Below are positions 36,114 through 50,944 of a DNA stretch of 57,574 bases, one piece after another. The notes below the pieces were generated by a model, which saw only the letters and a program-made list of their open reading frames with translations, made no database searches and had not been told where the DNA came from. The position numbers were made by a program, and so were the translations under genes. Each line of letters opens with the position of its first letter. Position 1 is the stretch's first letter. Where the stretch lies: the NCBI GenBank assembly GCA_028345095.1, contig JAOMCQ010000005.1:1-57574 (forward strand), written 5' to 3'. The DNA comes from Candidatus Nitrosopelagicus sp. (GTDB taxonomy: Archaea; Thermoproteota; Nitrososphaeria; Nitrososphaerales; Nitrosopumilaceae).

Positions 36114-36252
36114 TTTATTGTTATAGAAGCAGGTACGATTAAAGGTTAGTTTTCTAGGCTCAAACTAATCATCCATAATCAATGGGAGTAGTATTCATAA
36201 ACATGAAGAATTTTAGCAAAATATTTTTAAAAAACATTTGATTCCTCTGTCC

Positions 36253-39200
36253 ATGAGAAAAATTATAATTCTAGGATTAATGCTTGGAATTTTAACCTCT
36301 CCTGGATTATTTTTACCCCCGGATGCATTTGCAGCAGCACCTGCACAAGTAGGAACTGTCAGTATGACTCCAAATAAAACCAGTATTACATTATCATGGT
36401 CTGCGCCAGCATCACAAGGTGCAGATATTACCGATTACATTGTTAAATTTCGGGATGTGACTGAAGGGGATTATGATTCAAAGTTTGGTTCATCAGGAAC
36501 TGGTGATGGGCAGTTTGATAATCCAAATGGAATAGCAATTGATGGTTCTGGAAATATCTATGTTGTAGATTCAGACAATCATCGTGTACAAAAATTCAAC
36601 TCTGCAGGAGTATTCCAATCCGAGTTTGGTTCATCAGGTACAGGAAATGGACAATTCAATACACCTACTGGAATAGTAATTGATTCGTCAGGTAACATCT
36701 ATGTTGTAGATGCGGGTAATCATCGAATACAAAAATTCAACTCTTCTCATAGTTTTGTATTAAAGTGGGGCTCTCAAGGTACAGGCAATGCTCAATTCAA
36801 TGATCCCGCAGGAATAGCAATTAAATCAAACCGTATCTATGTTGCAGATTCAGGTAATGACCGTATTATGAGATATGATAATACAGGTACATTTGAAAAT
36901 AAGTTTGGTTCATCAGGAACTAATAATGGGCAGTTTGATAATCCTAGAGGAATAGCGTTTGATTCGTCAGGTAACATCTATGTTGTAGATTCAGACAATC
37001 ATCGTGTACAAAAATTAGATAGTAATGGAAATCATAGTAATACGTTTGGCTCATCAGGTACAGGAAATGGTCAGTTTGATAATCCTAGAGGAATAGCGTT
37101 TGATTCGTCAGGTAACATCTATGTTGTAGATTCAGACAATCATCGTGTACAAAAGTTTGATTCATCACGGAATTATTCTTCTCAGTTTGGTTCATCGGGT
37201 TCGAGTAATGGACAATTCAGTACACCAACTTATGTTGCAATTGACTCCTCAGACAACATCTATGTTGCTGATGGAAATAACCATCGTGTACAAAAATTCT
37301 CAGAGGGATTTACTACATTTAGTGATGGTACAAGTGCTACTACTAGTGCAACAGTCACTGGATTATCAGGTGCAAAATCATATGAGTTTAAAGTAGCAGC
37401 AGTCAACGCTGATGGAACCGGTTCTTATTCCTCTGTAGTTACAGGTCATACTACAGAATATGTTGCAGGACATGAGTTCTCAGGACATCAGTCATTTGAT
37501 GCTGGCAAAAAATTTGGGGCAGGTACAAAGTTTGCAGAAAATCAGGACTTTTCTGTAGGCACGATGGTTTTTAATGGTGCACAAGAATTTGGTGCAGGTA
37601 CAAAGTTTGCATCAGGTCAAGACCTATCTGGAGGAACGCACACATTTAGTCAAAATATAGAATTCCAAGGAAATACCGACTTTGCAGATGGCCAAGAATT
37701 TGCACAAGGAGCGAAATTTGACAAGGACCAAGAATTTGCTGCAGGAGAAAGTTACGACTTTACTGCAACATCAATGGAGTTTGGTGGTACAGAAGATACC
37801 TTTGCATCCAAATTTGGTTCATCAGGGTCTGGTAATGGACAACTTGACGATCCTGTTTCACTAGACATTGATGCATTAGGCAACATTTGGGTTATGGACA
37901 TGACTAACAACCGCATTCAAAAGTTTGATTCATCAGGTAACTATGTATCGAAATTTGGATCTTCTGGTTCTGGTAATGGACAGTTTAGTTCTGCTAGTGA
38001 CATAGTGTTTGATTCAACAGGTTACTACATGTATGTAGCAGATGCAGGAAACAACCGCATTCAAAAGTTTGACAATACCGGCACATATGTGCTAAAGTTT
38101 GGCTCTTCAGGTACAGGAAATGGACAATTCAATACACCCATCGGAATAGCAATTGATTCTGAAGGTTATCTTTGGGTAGCAGATTCAGGTAACCATAGGA
38201 TACAAAAATTTGACAATAATGGCGGGCATATGAAAACAGTTGGAACCTCAGGAACCGGCGATGGGCAGTTTAATTCTGCTCGCGATTTAGCAATTGATGC
38301 TGGGGATAGCATCTATGTCGTAGACCGAAATAACCATCGTGTACAGAAGTTTAATTCTGATGGTATCTATCAATCTCAATTTGGTTCAAATGGAAACGGT
38401 AATGGTCAGTTTAGTAGTCCTATTGGAATAGAATTTGATTCTGGCGGAAACATTTTCGTTACAGATACAGGAAATAACCGCATTCAAAAATTTGATCCTT
38501 CAGGTAATTTCTTAAATAAGTTTGGTTCATCAGGAACTGGTAATGGTCAGTTTGATAACGTTAATGGAATTACAACTAACTCCACACATACATTAGTTAC
38601 AGACATGAATAATGATCGTGTACAAATTTTTGGTGATGAAGGCATAGACTTTGGTACTGCTAGAACTTTTGGTACAAGTGCAGATTTTCAATCAGCTGTT
38701 CAGAAATTTATTGGACAAAATGTATTTGCGACAGGTGCTAAGTTTTCAGATGGACAGGATTTTAGTTCATTAGCTGTTCAGACATTCCAAGGTGCAAACA
38801 CATTTGGTAATGGTACAAAGTTTGCATCCGGCCAAGACCTATCTGCAGGAACACACTCATTTGGTAAAAATATAGAATTTAATGGAAATACCGACTTTGC
38901 AGATGGTCAAGAATTTTCATTTGGTACAAAATTTGATAAGGACCAAGAATTTGCTGCAGGTGAAAGTTATGACTTTAGTGCTATGGCAATGGAATTTGGT
39001 GGGCATAGAGGAGCATATGACTCCAAGTTTGGGTCATCAGGTACTGGCGATGGTCAGTTTGATAATCCTAGAGGAATAGCGTTTGATTCATCAGGTAACA
39101 TATGGGTTGTTGACTCAGATAATCACCGCATTCAAAAGTTCAACTCTGCTAGAATATTCCAATCCGAGTTTGGTTCATCCGGTAAAGGAAATGGTCAGTT

Positions 39201-41724
39201 TGATAATCCTAGAGGAATACTAATTGATTCAGATAATAGACTCTACGTAACAGATACCGATAACCATCGTGTACAAAAATTTGACAATACTGGAACGTAC
39301 ATGGCTAAATGGGGTTCTGAAGGTACCAGCAACACACAATTTGATGAACCTTCTGGAATCGCACTTGACTCGGACAATAATCTCTGGATTGCAGATAAGA
39401 ATAATCATAGAGTTGTAAAATATGATAGAAGTGGAAATTATGACTCCAAGTTTGGTTCTTCTGGTACGGGTGACGGGCAATTTAATAATGCATGTGGGAT
39501 AGCAATCGACTCGTCAGATAATATCTTTGTAACAGATCTAAATAATCATCGTGTACAAAAGTTTGATTCTAGTGGTACTTTTATTTCCAAGTTTGGTATT
39601 TCTGGAACTGGTAACGGACAATTTGATAATCCATGTGGGATAGCAATTGATGTGGGAGATAATGTCTTTGTTTCAGATAGAGATAATCATCGTGTACAAA
39701 TGTTTGATAATAATGGCGTCTTTAAACAATGGATTGGTTCCTCAGGAAATGGTAATGGACAATTAAACAAACCCCATGGATTAGTATTTGATTCTTCAGG
39801 TTCTATGTATGTAACAGATTCAGATAATCATCGTGTACAAAAATTAGTATCGGACGGAGTAGAATTTGGTACTGCTAGAACTTTTGGTCAGGATGCCGAT
39901 TTTGAATCAGCCATACAGACATTTGTTGGAAAAAATACATTTTCTGCAGGCGCTAAATTTGCAGTCAATCAAGACTTTAGTTCATTAGATCCTCAAGTAT
40001 TCTTAGGCAATAGTACATTTAGTGCAGGAACTAAATTCTCCGAAGCACAAGATCTTTCTACAGGCATTCATGAATTTGGTAGAAACATTACATTTGATGA
40101 TTTTACTGAATTTGCTGACAAACAAGCATTTACAGCTGCGATGACATTTGACAAATATCAACACTTTGGTGAAACTACTGATTTCACATCTGTTATTCAG
40201 ACATTCAAAGAGGGAAGTACATTTGGAGATGGAACTAAATTCAAATCTGATGGAACCCAGTCACTTCCTACGGGAACTATCCCCGCATTTGGCGTATTAC
40301 TGGAAAGTGTAACATGTACTGCAGAAGATTGTAAGCCAGCAGATGATAGTAAATTTCTTGAACCTGGAGAAATTTTACCTCCAGGTACGGATCCTGCTCC
40401 TTCATACACAAGTGTTTCATCAAGTGATAAATCCCTATCAGTCGAGGGATTAGGTCTATCAATGTCATTTGAAACTGTGTCTAGTGATGGAACAATCAAG
40501 AAAGATTTGTTAGATCCAGAAGATGTTACATCAGCAACAACTGAGTCAGATGGTTCCATCACAGTTACAACTTCTGAAGGAGGTGTTCCTATTGTAGGAA
40601 GTGTAATAGATCTTTCTGCAGGAACTGCAACGGTTTCAGGTACAATTACAGTTACTTTGCCTTATGTTGAATCTAACATTCCTGCTGGAAAAACAGAATC
40701 TGATTTGACTTTAGTTCACCAAGTTAATGGAGAATGGATTGAAGAAACAAATTGTACTACAAATACTACTGCAAACACAGTAACATGTAATGTCACATCA
40801 CTTTCTCCATTTGGAGTAGGTACAAAATCCTCTAGTTCTAGTTCTAGCTCTAGTACATCTGGAAGTGTGTCCGGTGGAAATACGGGTGTAGCATGTTATC
40901 CTGATGCATTAGATGGAAAGTCATTACGACTTTATGAGATTAGATATGATTTGTGTGGGGATCCTATCATAGAAGTAATTGGTTATTCGGCATGCGGTAT
41001 TATGGAATATACTGTAAAAGATAATACTGGAACAAATACTGGACATCTAAACCCTGAACAAAATTACTTAGATCAAATTAGAGTTAGTATGATTGCATCA
41101 GTATCTGCAGATTCGGATACGTTTAAAATATTAGTGAAAAATTTACGAGAGAACATACCTCACACATTACATCCTGAAAAAGTTGAGGGAGTGTTTCTAG
41201 AATGTACTGGAAATGTAATTCTTCCACAATTATCTTCAAAATTTACTGGTTACACTTCTAACGAAAAAACTTCTCAATGGGTTGCACCAGAAGAATTCAC
41301 GGGCTATACATCAGATGAAGAGATTTCTGGAATTCCGGAACCTGAACCAATTGAACCAACATATACTCCGGAACCTGAACCAATTGAACCAACATATACT
41401 CCGGAACCTGAACCAATTGAACCAACATATACTCCGGAACCTGAACCAATTGAACCAACATATACTCCGGAACCTGAACCAATTGAACCAACATATACTC
41501 CGGAACCTGAACCAATTGAACCAACATATACTCCGGAACCTGAACCAATTGAACCAACATATACTCCGGAACCTGAACCAATTGAACCAACATATACTCC
41601 GGAACCTGAACCAATTGAACCAACATATACTCCGGAACCTGAACCAATTGAACCAGAAGAGATTGACGAAGGAATTTTTGAATGGCTTATGAAGAGATTG
41701 TTATTCTCCTTCGGCAATAGATAA
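36253..41724 (+). CDS. giant secreted NHL-repeat surface protein
   Basis: About 1823 residues from ATG 36253; a TTG at 36238 is also in frame. Signal peptide about 1-28 (DAFAAAPA). A fibronectin type III domain starts at about 33 and resumes at about 353-398; six NHL repeats (72-351) sit between the halves. Then come an F-x(5) hexad repeat block (403-510), six NHL repeats (513-795), a hexad block, six NHL repeats (920-1200) and a hexad block to about 1333. Beyond these are a beta-rich region ending in a Ser-rich linker (1343-1530), a Cys-containing domain (1543-1656), ten PEPEPIEP units (1695-1801) and a terminal amphipathic helix. Likely cell-surface adhesion or ligand binding. Confidence 0.92.
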   Translation: MRKIIILGLMLGILTSPGLFLPPDAFAAAPAQVGTVSMTPNKTSITLSWSAPASQGADITDYIVKFRDVTEGDYDSKFGSSGTGDGQFDNPNGIAIDGSGNIYVVDSDNHRVQKFNSAGVFQSEFGSSGTGNGQFNTPTGIVIDSSGNIYVVDAGNHRIQKFNSSHSFVLKWGSQGTGNAQFNDPAGIAIKSNRIYVADSGNDRIMRYDNTGTFENKFGSSGTNNGQFDNPRGIAFDSSGNIYVVDSDNHRVQKLDSNGNHSNTFGSSGTGNGQFDNPRGIAFDSSGNIYVVDSDNHRVQKFDSSRNYSSQFGSSGSSNGQFSTPTYVAIDSSDNIYVADGNNHRVQKFSEGFTTFSDGTSATTSATVTGLSGAKSYEFKVAAVNADGTGSYSSVVTGHTTEYVAGHEFSGHQSFDAGKKFGAGTKFAENQDFSVGTMVFNGAQEFGAGTKFASGQDLSGGTHTFSQNIEFQGNTDFADGQEFAQGAKFDKDQEFAAGESYDFTATSMEFGGTEDTFASKFGSSGSGNGQLDDPVSLDIDALGNIWVMDMTNNRIQKFDSSGNYVSKFGSSGSGNGQFSSASDIVFDSTGYYMYVADAGNNRIQKFDNTGTYVLKFGSSGTGNGQFNTPIGIAIDSEGYLWVADSGNHRIQKFDNNGGHMKTVGTSGTGDGQFNSARDLAIDAGDSIYVVDRNNHRVQKFNSDGIYQSQFGSNGNGNGQFSSPIGIEFDSGGNIFVTDTGNNRIQKFDPSGNFLNKFGSSGTGNGQFDNVNGITTNSTHTLVTDMNNDRVQIFGDEGIDFGTARTFGTSADFQSAVQKFIGQNVFATGAKFSDGQDFSSLAVQTFQGANTFGNGTKFASGQDLSAGTHSFGKNIEFNGNTDFADGQEFSFGTKFDKDQEFAAGESYDFSAMAMEFGGHRGAYDSKFGSSGTGDGQFDNPRGIAFDSSGNIWVVDSDNHRIQKFNSARIFQSEFGSSGKGNGQFDNPRGILIDSDNRLYVTDTDNHRVQKFDNTGTYMAKWGSEGTSNTQFDEPSGIALDSDNNLWIADKNNHRVVKYDRSGNYDSKFGSSGTGDGQFNNACGIAIDSSDNIFVTDLNNHRVQKFDSSGTFISKFGISGTGNGQFDNPCGIAIDVGDNVFVSDRDNHRVQMFDNNGVFKQWIGSSGNGNGQLNKPHGLVFDSSGSMYVTDSDNHRVQKLVSDGVEFGTARTFGQDADFESAIQTFVGKNTFSAGAKFAVNQDFSSLDPQVFLGNSTFSAGTKFSEAQDLSTGIHEFGRNITFDDFTEFADKQAFTAAMTFDKYQHFGETTDFTSVIQTFKEGSTFGDGTKFKSDGTQSLPTGTIPAFGVLLESVTCTAEDCKPADDSKFLEPGEILPPGTDPAPSYTSVSSSDKSLSVEGLGLSMSFETVSSDGTIKKDLLDPEDVTSATTESDGSITVTTSEGGVPIVGSVIDLSAGTATVSGTITVTLPYVESNIPAGKTESDLTLVHQVNGEWIEETNCTTNTTANTVTCNVTSLSPFGVGTKSSSSSSSSSTSGSVSGGNTGVACYPDALDGKSLRLYEIRYDLCGDPIIEVIGYSACGIMEYTVKDNTGTNTGHLNPEQNYLDQIRVSMIASVSADSDTFKILVKNLRENIPHTLHPEKVEGVFLECTGNVILPQLSSKFTGYTSNEKTSQWVAPEEFTGYTSDEEISGIPEPEPIEPTYTPEPEPIEPTYTPEPEPIEPTYTPEPEPIEPTYTPEPEPIEPTYTPEPEPIEPTYTPEPEPIEPTYTPEPEPIEPTYTPEPEPIEPTYTPEPEPIEPEEIDEGIFEWLMKRLLFSFGNR
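41335..41655 (+). repeat. 33-bp coding tandem repeat, 10 units
   Basis: Nine complete 33-bp copies and a tenth partial copy inside the NHL protein gene, each starting CCGGAACCTGAACC and encoding PEPEPIEPTYT. Copies appear identical base for base, which suggests recent expansion or homogenisation. The repeat forms an acidic Pro/Glu stalk. It has no spacers, so it is not a CRISPR array. Confidence 0.95.
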
Positions 41725-41749
41725 CTATGATATTTTTCTATGACAAAAT

Positions 41750-41923
41750 TTATCCATAGATTAAGCAGTGTTCGCAATCACAACTAGGTTGTTCTTTAGA
41801 TTTGAAAAGACATTTTTTGTGTTGACCTGCCTGACATTGCACACAAATTTTTTCTAGATTATCAACACTAGTATATTTTTTTGACTGATCAAAGCCGAAG
41901 CCTCCATCTTGCGGACCAACCAT
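41750..41923 (-). CDS. 57-residue Cys-rich protein, probably zinc-binding
   Basis: A short frame from ATG 41923 to TAA 41750. It begins MVGPQDGGFGFDQSKKYT, then carries CVQC, a Cys-Gly-free CLF, and CDCEHC, six cysteines plus two His (AGQHKKC, CEHC). This pattern fits a small zinc-binding fold and resembles a compact treble-clef module. It is not in an obvious operon: 25 nt separate it from the next gene on the same strand. Function unknown. Confidence 0.7.
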   Translation of the reverse strand: MVGPQDGGFGFDQSKKYTSVDNLEKICVQCQAGQHKKCLFKSKEQPSCDCEHCLIYG

Positions 41924-47796: not shown

Positions 47797-48345
47797 ATGG
47801 ACATTTCATTTCTTGATTCAGACGCATTTCTCATTGGATATTATGTATTAACAGTAGGAGCCAGCCTTCTTTTGATTAAAGACACAAAAAAACGAATTAG
47901 AGATTTAAGAACAGGAATTGGCTCAATGAAATATGCGCCAATAGCATTTGGTATTTTATCAGTATACGTTTTGTTTGTATTTGAATATGTTGATCAGATA
48001 CCCATACTAAATTGGAGTTGGCTTGGTTATAACATTGCATTTGGGCCATTTGCAGATCAAGGAATACTTGGAATAATTCCATTCATGCCATTATTACTTT
48101 ACATGTTTTTGCACATAAATTATTTTGAAGAATTTTACTTCAGAAAATCAAAAAAAATGGTCTTAGTATGGGCACTAATCCATATTGGAATGGGCATAAA
48201 AATACACATGGCATTAGTGTTAATACCAATTGGATTTGTATTCAAGTACATTTATGATAAAAAGGGCATAAAACATTCCTATGCGATGCATTTTGCTACA
48301 AACATTTTGGTTGTAATGATGTTATTTCTTTCGTTTATACTTTGA
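47797..48345 (+). CDS. CPBP/CAAX-like intramembrane protease
   Basis: About 182 residues with five to six membrane segments. The CPBP signature is present: EEFYFR (EExxxR, about 111-116), an H in WALIHIG (about 129) and H-x-x-x-N in HFATN (about 165-169). Family members are membrane-embedded metalloproteases with catalytic Glu and His residues. The short length and single copy of motifs make the enzymatic assignment reasonable but not sure. ATG 47797 is chosen over a TTG at 47788. Its 3' end overlaps the next gene by 24 nt. Confidence 0.75.
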   Translation: MDISFLDSDAFLIGYYVLTVGASLLLIKDTKKRIRDLRTGIGSMKYAPIAFGILSVYVLFVFEYVDQIPILNWSWLGYNIAFGPFADQGILGIIPFMPLLLYMFLHINYFEEFYFRKSKKMVLVWALIHIGMGIKIHMALVLIPIGFVFKYIYDKKGIKHSYAMHFATNILVVMMLFLSFIL

Positions 48346-48579
48346 GTCTTTTCTTGGATCAACTTTCTTCACTTGTGTCAAGTAAAGATATGTCATAAAA
48401 GCACCTAAGACTAAATTTACTACGCCCAAAACAACTATCATAAAATAATTCATTGAAGCCTTGAATGTTCCCATCCATAATCCAAAAGCAATACCCCATA
48501 TTCCTACCATTGTAAAGACAGCTATGAGAATTTTTAATTTCTTAGGATTAACGTATTTTAATTTCAATGATAAAACCAT
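48322..48579 (-). CDS. small two-helix membrane protein
   Basis: An 85-residue protein with membrane helices at about 17-34 and 40-65 and a basic tail (PRKDSKYKRKK). Its end overlaps the convergent CPBP-like gene by 24 nt. No family recognised. Confidence 0.62.
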   Translation of the reverse strand: MVLSLKLKYVNPKKLKILIAVFTMVGIWGIAFGLWMGTFKASMNYFMIVVLGVVNLVLGAFMTYLYLTQVKKVDPRKDSKYKRKK

Positions 48580-48646
48580 AGTTTAGAAGTTATTAAATTA
48601 TGGGTATCTTAACATTTTAAACCAGCCATTTTATGAAAAATGTAGT

Positions 48647-48720
48647 GCCAGTGTAGCTCAGCCTGGTTAGAGCAATTGATTTGTAATCAATAGGTCGAGA
48701 GTTCAAATCTCTCTACTGGC
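48647..48720 (+). tRNA. tRNA-Thr (TGT)
   Basis: 74-nt cloverleaf with acceptor GCCAGTG/TACTGGC, D-arm GCTC..GAGC, anticodon stem ATTGA/TCAAT, loop TTTGTAA with anticodon TGT, and T-arm GAGAG-TTCAAAT-CTCTC. No intron and no encoded CCA. Confidence 0.97.
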
Positions 48721-48791
48721 TTCCTTTTTTAAAATTGACTCTCAGGTAATTGTTAAAAATAATTTAAATTCATCAAATATCAAAAATTATT

Positions 48792-49319
48792 ATGAGTAGA
48801 AAATCTAAAGAAGAAGAACTATCAGAATATGAAAAAGATTATCTAAAAAGATTAACTACCAAAGGAAAAATAAGATCAATACAAAAAGAGGAATCCACCA
48901 TTAGTGAAGAAGAGAGAACTCGAAAAGTAGAAGAAGCGGAGAAAATTCAGATAGAATCTGCACAACAAATTCAAGAAGCTTCTGCGGCAAAAATTCAATC
49001 AGAAATAGATATAAAAAATAAACAAGAGTTTTTGAATAAAGAAATCTTATTATTAATTGATGAATTAAAAGTTCTAAAAACAGAATTAGAGAAAGAACCT
49101 GTAAAGAGGAAGGTTTCTAAAAAGAAAGTAACTCCTAAGAGACGAAAAACTGTAAAGAGGAAGGTTTCTAAAAAGAAAGTAACTCCTAAGAGACGAAAAA
49201 CTGTAAAGAGGAAGGTTTCTAAAAAGAAAGTAACTCCTAAGAGACGAAAAACTGTAAAGAGGAAGGTTTCTAAAAAGAAAGTAACTCCTAAGAGACGAAA
49301 AACTGTAAAGAGGAAGTAG
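48792..49319 (+). CDS. H1-like protein with coiled coil and Lys-rich repeat tail
   Basis: A 175-residue protein. N-terminal module SKEEELSEYEKDYLKRL (about 4-20) followed by a Glu/Lys/Gln coiled coil (about 30-100) and four Lys/Arg-rich 17-residue repeats (KRKVSKKKVTPKRRKTV) at the C-terminus, like histone H1 tails. The 17-residue repeat is encoded by a 51-bp DNA repeat. It is probably DNA- or RNA-binding. The N-terminal module recurs at the C-terminus of the protein at 55602-56465. ATG start 71 nt after tRNA-Thr. Confidence 0.82.
   Translation: MSRKSKEEELSEYEKDYLKRLTTKGKIRSIQKEESTISEEERTRKVEEAEKIQIESAQQIQEASAAKIQSEIDIKNKQEFLNKEILLLIDELKVLKTELEKEPVKRKVSKKKVTPKRRKTVKRKVSKKKVTPKRRKTVKRKVSKKKVTPKRRKTVKRKVSKKKVTPKRRKTVKRK
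49101..49317 (+). repeat. 51-bp coding tandem repeat, four units
   Basis: Four complete copies and a partial fifth of a 51-bp unit beginning GTAAAGAGGAAGG, encoding the basic tail KRKVSKKKVTPKRRKTV. Copies look identical, implying recent expansion or homogenisation. Confidence 0.95.
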
Positions 49320-49363
49320 AATATTACTTAAAGCATTTTATGTTACATTAATTTGCATAGAGC

Positions 49364-50944
49364 ATGCAGAAATTAAGTGAGAATTTTTTAGATGCATGTA
49401 AAGAAATTTGTGAACGATTATCTGGAATTGATAATCTAGAAAAAAATCAATTGAAACATGAAATAAAGGAAATATGTGCAAAATATTCATTAGAAAGACT
49501 ACCAAGAAATTCAGAAATACTATCAGTCGCAACAGAAGAACAATTCTTAAAGCTTCAGAAAGTTTTGCTAAAAAAACCAGTAAAATCAGCTTCAGGAGTG
49601 ACAGTAATTGCGATAATGCCAAAACCTTTTGCATGTCCACATGGAAGATGTACATTTTGCCCTGGAGGAACAGAGATCAATACTCCAAACAGCTACACAG
49701 GAAAAGAACCTGTAACACTTAGTGCAATAGAAGATGATTATGAACCTGGAACTCAGATAAAAAGAAGAATTGAACAATTAATTGCATTTGGTCATGATCC
49801 TACAAAATTAGAGCTAGTTATCGTAGGAGGGACGTTCCTGTTTATGCCAGATGAATATCAACGAAATTTCATAAAATCATGTTATGATGCAATTAATGGA
49901 TTTGAATCAAGTAGTTTAGAGGATGCAAAAAGAAATAATGAAAAAGCAAAAATGCGAAATGTCGGTTTCACAATAGAAACAAAACCAGATTATTGTCAAC
50001 AGAAACATGTGGATATGATGCTAGATTATGGAACAACCAGAGTAGAAATTGGTGTTCAAAGTCTAACTGAAAGAGTTTACAATATTGTGAATAGAGGACA
50101 TAATTTACAACAAGTAATAAGTTCATTTCAAATTGCAAAAGATGCAGGATACAAAGTTGTTGCACACATGATGCCAGGACTTCCAACCATGAGTCCAAAA
50201 GAAGACATTGCTGATTTTAAAAAATTATTTGAGATGGAAGAGTTCAAACCAGATATGCTAAAAATTTATCCGGCTTTAGTGTTAAAAGACACTCCACTAT
50301 ATGATGATTATAAATTAGGAAATTACAAACCGTATTCAACAGAAGATATGATTAATGTTTTAACTGAATCTAAAAAAATGGTTCCAAAATGGGTTAGAAT
50401 CATGAGAGTTCAACGAGAAATAACAACAGATGAAATTATTGATGGTCCAAAGATGGGAAATTTAAGACAAAAAGTTCATCAGGAATTAGAAAAACAAGGA
50501 ACATCATGCAAATGTATTAGATGTAGGGAGGCAGGTTTGAATAATAAAAAAGAATTTTCAGAATTAAAATTAGAAAGAATAGATTATGATGCATGTGGTG
50601 GAAAAGAGATATTTTTGTCATTTAATGATGAAAGTGACTTAACATATGGATTTTTGAGACTACGAAAACCTAGTCAAAATGTACATAGACCGGAAATTAC
50701 TGATAAAACATCAATTGTGAGAGAACTACACGTATTTGGAAAAGCAATTGGTATTGGTGAGCAGGGAGAATTTAGCTTTCAACACCAAGGAATTGGAAAA
50801 AAATTAATGATGAAAGCAGAAGAAATTGCTGCAACAGATCTGTCGTCAAACAAATTATGTGTAATCAGTGCAGTAGGTACAAGAGAATATTATAGAAAAT
50901 TAAATTATAAAAATAATGGACCATATATGGCAAAGGAGTTGTGA
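49364..50944 (+). CDS. elp3: Elp3, tRNA uridine-modifying radical SAM/acetyltransferase
   Basis: A 526-residue protein. Radical SAM cluster cysteines are C91, C96 and C99 in CPHGRCTFCPGG. A TIM-barrel continues to about residue 360 (VGFTIETKPDYC, TRVEIGVQSL). A GNAT acetyltransferase domain closes the protein, with the acetyl-CoA motif QHQGIGKKL near residue 470. Elp3 adds a carboxymethyl group at tRNA wobble uridine. The next gene lysK follows after 6 nt, so a translation-related operon is likely. Confidence 0.95.
   Translation: MQKLSENFLDACKEICERLSGIDNLEKNQLKHEIKEICAKYSLERLPRNSEILSVATEEQFLKLQKVLLKKPVKSASGVTVIAIMPKPFACPHGRCTFCPGGTEINTPNSYTGKEPVTLSAIEDDYEPGTQIKRRIEQLIAFGHDPTKLELVIVGGTFLFMPDEYQRNFIKSCYDAINGFESSSLEDAKRNNEKAKMRNVGFTIETKPDYCQQKHVDMMLDYGTTRVEIGVQSLTERVYNIVNRGHNLQQVISSFQIAKDAGYKVVAHMMPGLPTMSPKEDIADFKKLFEMEEFKPDMLKIYPALVLKDTPLYDDYKLGNYKPYSTEDMINVLTESKKMVPKWVRIMRVQREITTDEIIDGPKMGNLRQKVHQELEKQGTSCKCIRCREAGLNNKKEFSELKLERIDYDACGGKEIFLSFNDESDLTYGFLRLRKPSQNVHRPEITDKTSIVRELHVFGKAIGIGEQGEFSFQHQGIGKKLMMKAEEIAATDLSSNKLCVISAVGTREYYRKLNYKNNGPYMAKEL

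Follow-up and report, generated by a model that had tools for sequence, protein, structure and literature searches.

How a single archaeal protein comes to carry three separate NHL propellers, and whether these stand between its other domains or within them, is the question raised by the gene at positions 36253-41724 (+ strand) of the window, as we call the whole 57,574-nucleotide stretch of Candidatus Nitrosopelagicus DNA that was analysed, and which belongs to an incomplete (66% complete) genome of 895 kb. Taken as a whole, the gene product is best explained as a strain-variable secreted surface protein in which three propellers have been inserted into an older host chain, a reading to which we give a probability of roughly 70%; the structural part of it, in which the propellers are nested in a fibronectin type III (Fn3) domain and in a Phe-rich solenoid, we regard as very probable.

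Layout of the protein and its propellers

The gene is a single ORF of 1823 aa, with an ATG start at 36253 and an in-frame TTG upstream of it at 36238; all features of the protein given below lie on the + strand. The Pfam NHL profile PF01436 matched the product above its curated cut-off (E = 8e-143, 458 bits, 17 individually significant stretches), the Pfam fn3 family matched the same protein with E = 5e-11, and the pattern of NHL, Fn3 and Phe-rich repeats is far beyond chance. A putative Sec-type signal peptide (36253-36333, residues 1-27), with its cleavage site placed by eye between ...PPDAFA and AAPA, contains the 19 residues of highest hydrophobicity in the protein (about 2.0 on the Kyte–Doolittle scale), and is the only strongly hydrophobic stretch in it. 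The NCBIfam model NF035926, for the scytonemin biosynthesis protein ScyF, also scored above its cut-off (606 bits against 350, in 10 stretches), the score being summed over many NHL repeats. ScyF is a single-propeller protein with a PEP-CTERM signal, whereas the present protein is archaeal, with three nested propellers, and no model for a PEP-CTERM sorting signal is among its NCBIfam matches; we therefore reject the match as a repeat-driven false assignment. Automatic annotation by this equivalog would misname the protein (P0001, 36253-41724).

Placing the blades by their [F/W]G motif, with starts in register, gave 18 NHL blades in three sets of six, starting at residues 77, 124, 171, 217, 264 and 311 (propeller 1), 520, 567, 615, 662, 709 and 756 (propeller 2) and 925, 972, 1019, 1066, 1113 and 1160 (propeller 3). 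A preliminary description of the locus had counted exactly 18 repeats in three groups of six, and the register count agrees with it in both numbers and coordinates; the weakest blade by eye is the last of the second group. The three propellers are 53-61% identical to one another (propeller 2 is 55%, and propeller 3 61%, identical to propeller 1), and some blades have been homogenised, the fourth and fifth of propeller 1 being 85% identical.

The structure of residues 28-404 was predicted with AlphaFold2 from an alignment whose rows were propellers 2 and 3 and four propellers from viral contigs; propeller-only rows were used because a joint MAFFT alignment with the host halves misplaced the Fn3 fragments. 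The model had an overall pLDDT of 85 and a pTM of 0.78, with values of pLDDT of 90-98 in propeller 1. In Foldseek comparisons propeller 1 matched the solved six-bladed NHL domains of Thin and TRIM71 with TM scores of 0.94-0.96, the match to Thin (6xg7) having a TM of 0.96 and a deviation of 0.9 Å over 281 columns. Propeller 1 is thus predicted, with high confidence, to close into a six-bladed ring, and the closure that had been proposed from the repeat number is upheld by this match of the modelled ring to complete solved domains. Propellers 2 and 3 would be closed six-bladed rings as well, judged solely by the 53-61% homology among the three and their equal length.

All three inserts share one register: in each, an outer strand d (..YDSKFG, ..FASKFG) comes first and the c strand of blade 6 (HRVQKF, DRVQIF, HRVQKL) comes last. 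In the model that we propose, each ring would be opened at the c/d hairpin of blade 6, with the first strand (..SKFG) as d and the last (HRVQKF) as c, so that the two ends of the insert should emerge next to each other and the loop of the host could close beneath the propeller.

Host domains around the propellers

Propeller 1 (36463-37308, residues 71-352; six blades, from the AlphaFold2 model and its TM match) is flanked by an N-terminal Fn3 half with strands A, B and C (36334-36462, residues 28-70) and a C-terminal Fn3 half with strands C', E, F and G (37309-37464, residues 353-404), both delimited by the PF00041 profile and the strands of the model. Searched separately, residues 28-72 matched PF00041 positions 5-40 with 27.2 bits, and residues 351-404 matched positions 47-83 with 30.0 bits; joined, the halves gave one match to positions 6-82 of 84, whose 61.6 bits exceed the sum of the two. 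In the AlphaFold2 model the strands before the propeller lie at model positions 9-13, 17-22 and 32-41, and those after it at 327-329, 338-342, 349-358 and 363-372, which is the correct Fn3 order at low confidence (pLDDT about 53-70 in both halves). In Nitrosopumilus sp. Nsub, RIS_SAG_24 and NORP47 the domain is uninterrupted and gives a single fn3 match (52.9, 38.1 and 39.0 bits, respectively). The Nsub sequence DYIIQISPDDSNWSTFSDGTS corresponds to DYIVKFRDVTEG[propeller]SEGFTTFSDGTS in the present protein, with 21/39 identical residues on one side of the junction and 29/41 on the other, and this alignment locates the insert in the C-C' loop of the Fn3 domain. The proposal that the first propeller lies between two halves of one Fn3 domain is supported by the complementary parts of the profile and the uninterrupted Fn3 of the relatives at the same position. 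The low confidence of both modelled halves would suit two independent partial domains, or linkers, flanking the propeller in an ordinary tandem with nothing nested, but we consider this very improbable, given that the halves match parts of the fn3 model that do not overlap and, once joined, give one match, that strands A, B and C precede the propeller and C', E, F and G follow it, and that the same two halves are contiguous in relatives, where DYIIQISPDDSNWSTFSDGTS replaces DYIVKFRDV[propeller]FTTFSDGTS.

The Fn3 domain is followed by Phe-rich block 1 (37465-37788, residues 405-512), propeller 2 (37789-38640, residues 513-796, six blades), block 2 (38641-39003, residues 797-917), propeller 3 (39004-39852, residues 918-1200, six blades) and block 3 (39853-40272, residues 1201-1340). 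Phenylalanine recurs in the blocks mostly every 6 residues. Block 1 is 54-63% identical to the propeller-free blocks of Nitrosopelagicus AH-558-D10 (G036, L137), in which Phe-rich units of ~123 residues stand back to back with no propeller; block 2 was assigned by its 67% identity to block 1 and the predicted fold of homologous units, and block 3 by its 49% identity to block 1 and its continuity with the host sequence of the relatives. The unit junction of L137, MEFGDDAGVDFGKARTFG, is the empty site of both propellers, which is occupied here as MEFGG[TEDTFASKFG...VQIFGDE]GIDFGTARTFG by propeller 2 and as MEFGG[HRGAYDSKFG...VQKLVSD]GVEFGTARTFG by propeller 3. Three homologous Phe-rich units were predicted to fold as a regular β-solenoid (pLDDT 92, pTM 0.85), in which strands of two residues recur at intervals of about six and the propeller junction lies in an inter-strand turn. 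The preliminary description had groups two and three separated by F-rich blocks, which is correct in that the blocks do lie between them, but incomplete: because relatives without propellers have uninterrupted Phe-rich repeats, both propellers appear to lie inside solenoid turns, beyond mere separation. The nesting of propellers 2 and 3 at equivalent turns of a predicted β-solenoid is thereby supported.

The solenoid is without a close solved relative: the blocks matched no Pfam family, those of beta-helix or pentapeptide repeats included, and no PDB sequence, and its predicted fold matched nothing in the PDB at E <= 0.001 and gave one weak match among viral models (9e-5, TM 0.23). In a related ORF (L092, G158 C6, 381-4742) copies of a different set of inserted domains (NLRLNGLTTGT...) recur between the solenoid units, so it seems that more than one kind of insert can be accommodated in the Phe-rich solenoid.

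The rest of the chain begins with a conserved C-terminal host domain (40273-40824, residues 1341-1524, IPAFGV...SLSPFGVG), which is 38-49% identical in host relatives without propellers and for which a Pfam search returned no family. The following Ser-rich linker and second C-terminal domain (40825-41331, residues 1525-1693) fall within a C-terminal region of about 300 aa that is shared with the Nsub and RIS_SAG_24 homologues at 46-47% identity. The protein ends in a Pro-Glu-Thr-Tyr repeat tail and a basic, hydrophobic C-terminus (41332-41721); the tail is encoded by a tandem repeat at 41334-41655, with 9.8 copies, 100% identical, of a 33-bp unit specifying PEPEPIEPTYT, whose copy number is likely to give tails of differing length between cells.

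Distribution and origin

The host protein exists without propellers in relatives from both Nitrosopumilus and Nitrosopelagicus. The homologues of Nsub, RIS_SAG_24, NORP47 and AH-558-D10 have the solenoid and the C-terminal host domain in common with the protein described here, and three of the four (Nsub, RIS_SAG_24 and NORP47) have an intact Fn3 domain, but none has a propeller. Matches to the C-terminal host region were found in 25/250 genomes of the family, many of them weak or partial, and matches to the Phe-rich block in 9/200 genomes. The junction of propeller and Fn3 was found in this genome only, among 250 family and 398 phylum genomes (overlapping sets), in a search that detects only Fn3 domains resembling that of this protein; a partial match in G018 was rejected as a second case, being an NHL protein without Fn3. 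Two giant ORFs also occur in the Nitrosopumilaceae, one of 9668 residues, rich in Fn3 matches (G046 C1, around 948556-973443), and one of 6484 residues (G084 C23, around 48298-50154) in which both the Phe-rich and the C-terminal host domains of the present protein recur.

The genes on either side, a thioesterase and an M3 peptidase with CbtA and small genes, are conserved. The syntenic locus lacks the gene in all 11 other Nitrosopelagicus genomes whose two flanks lie together on one contig, the spacing between the flanks being about 1.6-1.84 kb compared with 7.4 kb here; in five of the 11 the flanking DNA is 93-97% identical. Homology stops on the left at 36169-36182 and resumes on the right at 41731-41747, and a 7-bp direct repeat, ATCCATA, present in only two copies in the searched stretch, marks both edges of the inserted DNA (36171-41758) at 36171-36177 and 41752-41758, in agreement with the empty target ATCCATAAATTAA of several relatives. 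No integrase or transposase gene lies inside the insertion. The simplest reading of these comparisons would be a clean single-gene gain, by which a complex surface protein was acquired by Nitrosopelagicus, a marine ammonia-oxidising, open-ocean nitrifier. A foreign origin judged by codon usage was rejected, the codon distance of the gene (0.060) being within the range of its neighbours; with such native usage the gene was probably donated by a related archaeon, or else was not gained very recently.

The closest outside propeller seen is in a protein encoded two genes from a tape-measure gene in marine viral contigs, with 57% identity to propeller 1. The resident NHL proteins of the genus were rejected as a source, as they are only about 40% identical and group apart in the tree, in which the propellers of the window fall with those of the viral contigs (support 86/88). 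The three were not resolved as a clade, so that a single acquisition followed by duplication lacks tree support, and the identities are hard to read because the blades are near-consensus.

We infer that the propellers were inserted rather than repeatedly lost. There are few relatives, and these are divergent, with 38-49% identity in the C-terminal region, so that the direction of change rests on parsimony, and ancestral propellers that were later lost would account for the same distribution; this is, however, improbable, as it would need the clean in-frame removal of each propeller in several lineages. Moreover, the host homologues that were read have no propellers, the junction is in no other of the 250 family genomes, and the NHL family resident in the genus is not where the three propellers fall in the tree, their loose grouping being with phage and other NHL proteins.

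Two observations concern phage proteins. An ORF on IMG/VR contigs L139 / L140 (3104-6313), close to a tape-measure gene, encodes a phage protein with one six-bladed NHL propeller, 57% identical to propeller 1 and in the same strand-d to strand-c register, which by eye lies inside a LamG-type domain; Pfam did not confirm the LamG-like host, even at E = 10, and a relative with an empty site was not found, and we treat this nesting as a lead only. On phage contig L142 (3983-5774) there are successive NHL-repeat frames, the first of which is a stand-alone six-blade propeller of 279 residues. It is conceivable, though we would put it forward only tentatively, that the c/d-opened NHL propeller is a portable nested module, spreading between marine archaeal surface proteins and phage structural proteins and entering β-hairpin loops of unrelated hosts; if so, one strain could gain several side-mounted binding heads.

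Proposed role and comparison with known systems

We propose that three complete NHL propellers would have entered, in frame, an older host chain running from a signal peptide through one Fn3 domain, a Phe-rich β-solenoid and a conserved C-terminal domain to a proline-rich tail; the first would lie in the C-C' hairpin of the Fn3 domain, and the other two at equivalent turns in successive units of the solenoid. A location at the cell surface is suggested by the signal peptide, by the linker rich in Ser and the tail rich in Pro, and by the hydrophobic C-terminal segment of RIS_SAG_24; since the protein itself showed no membrane anchor, it could be released. On the stiff solenoid stalk the propellers might act as side-mounted recognition heads at fixed spacing, whose ligand would be a glycan or a protein carried by other cells, by particles or by viruses. 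This recognition or adhesive role, suggested by the presence of the gene in one genome and by propellers as binding modules, has in our view about an even chance of being right; the protein yielded neither an enzymatic nor a binding motif.

Of the alternatives, a passive part for the propellers, as ligand-free spacers or as bulk within the cell envelope, associated with the S-layer, seems unlikely. The near-consensus and partly homogenised blades (85% identity between the fourth and fifth of propeller 1) would be expected if bulk outweighed a specific site, but three complete six-blade propellers have been kept at 53-61% identity with no decay. Equally doubtful is a part in defence or escape, in which the protein would not be an adhesin but would serve, under pressure from phages, as a decoy or as a variable receptor: the strain-specific presence of the gene and the similar propellers of viral-contig proteins (57% identity) would fit it, but strain-variable surface genes suit adhesion or escape from grazing equally well. 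Recognition by side-mounted heads is the role we prefer.

The propellers agree with the NHL domains of Thin, TRIM71/Lin41 and Brat and the extracellular NHL domain of PknD in repeat family, blade number, size (~280 residues) and closure; in those proteins, however, the NHL domain is terminal or in tandem, whereas here propellers interrupt other domains at three points. The filamin domain and NHL domain of zebrafish Lin41 are in tandem and are not known to be nested. Its structure (6fpt) has the Ig-like filamin domain and the NHL domain in one chain. A 2002 paper (Structure 10:1453), cited in PMC8559796 and PMC2447325, reportedly, by its title, concerns archaeal surface proteins with propeller, Ig-like and beta-helical domains; compared by title, which does not speak of nesting, the combination is similar but the domain families differ, being NHL and Fn3 here.

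In a 2026 survey of domain insertions (PMC13114784), the median distance between termini was 14.3 Å for inserts against 29.8 Å for the background, and in 77% of the insertions the insert was smaller than its host, with medians of 115 and 199 residues, respectively; neither propellers nor Fn3 domains are mentioned in its text. As in the A1-B-A2 insertions surveyed, the host here is discontinuous and the ends of the insert are expected to be close, and an uninterrupted host homologue at the same point is found in Nsub, RIS_SAG_24 and NORP47 for the Fn3 domain and in L137 for the solenoid. This gives a case of domain nesting with before-and-after sequences, the host chain of the relatives being empty at both the Fn3 and solenoid sites. 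No propeller nested in an Fn3 domain was found in the open-access literature searched. NHL propellers and Fn3 domains were already known, as were surface proteins of archaea in which propeller, Ig-like and beta-helical domains occur together; the triple nesting is new. Opening at one hairpin should leave two adjacent ends, which suggests why an NHL propeller can nest, and does so here contrary to the usual size rule for inserted domains, with a propeller of ~280 residues inside an Fn3 domain of ~95, about three times the size of its host.
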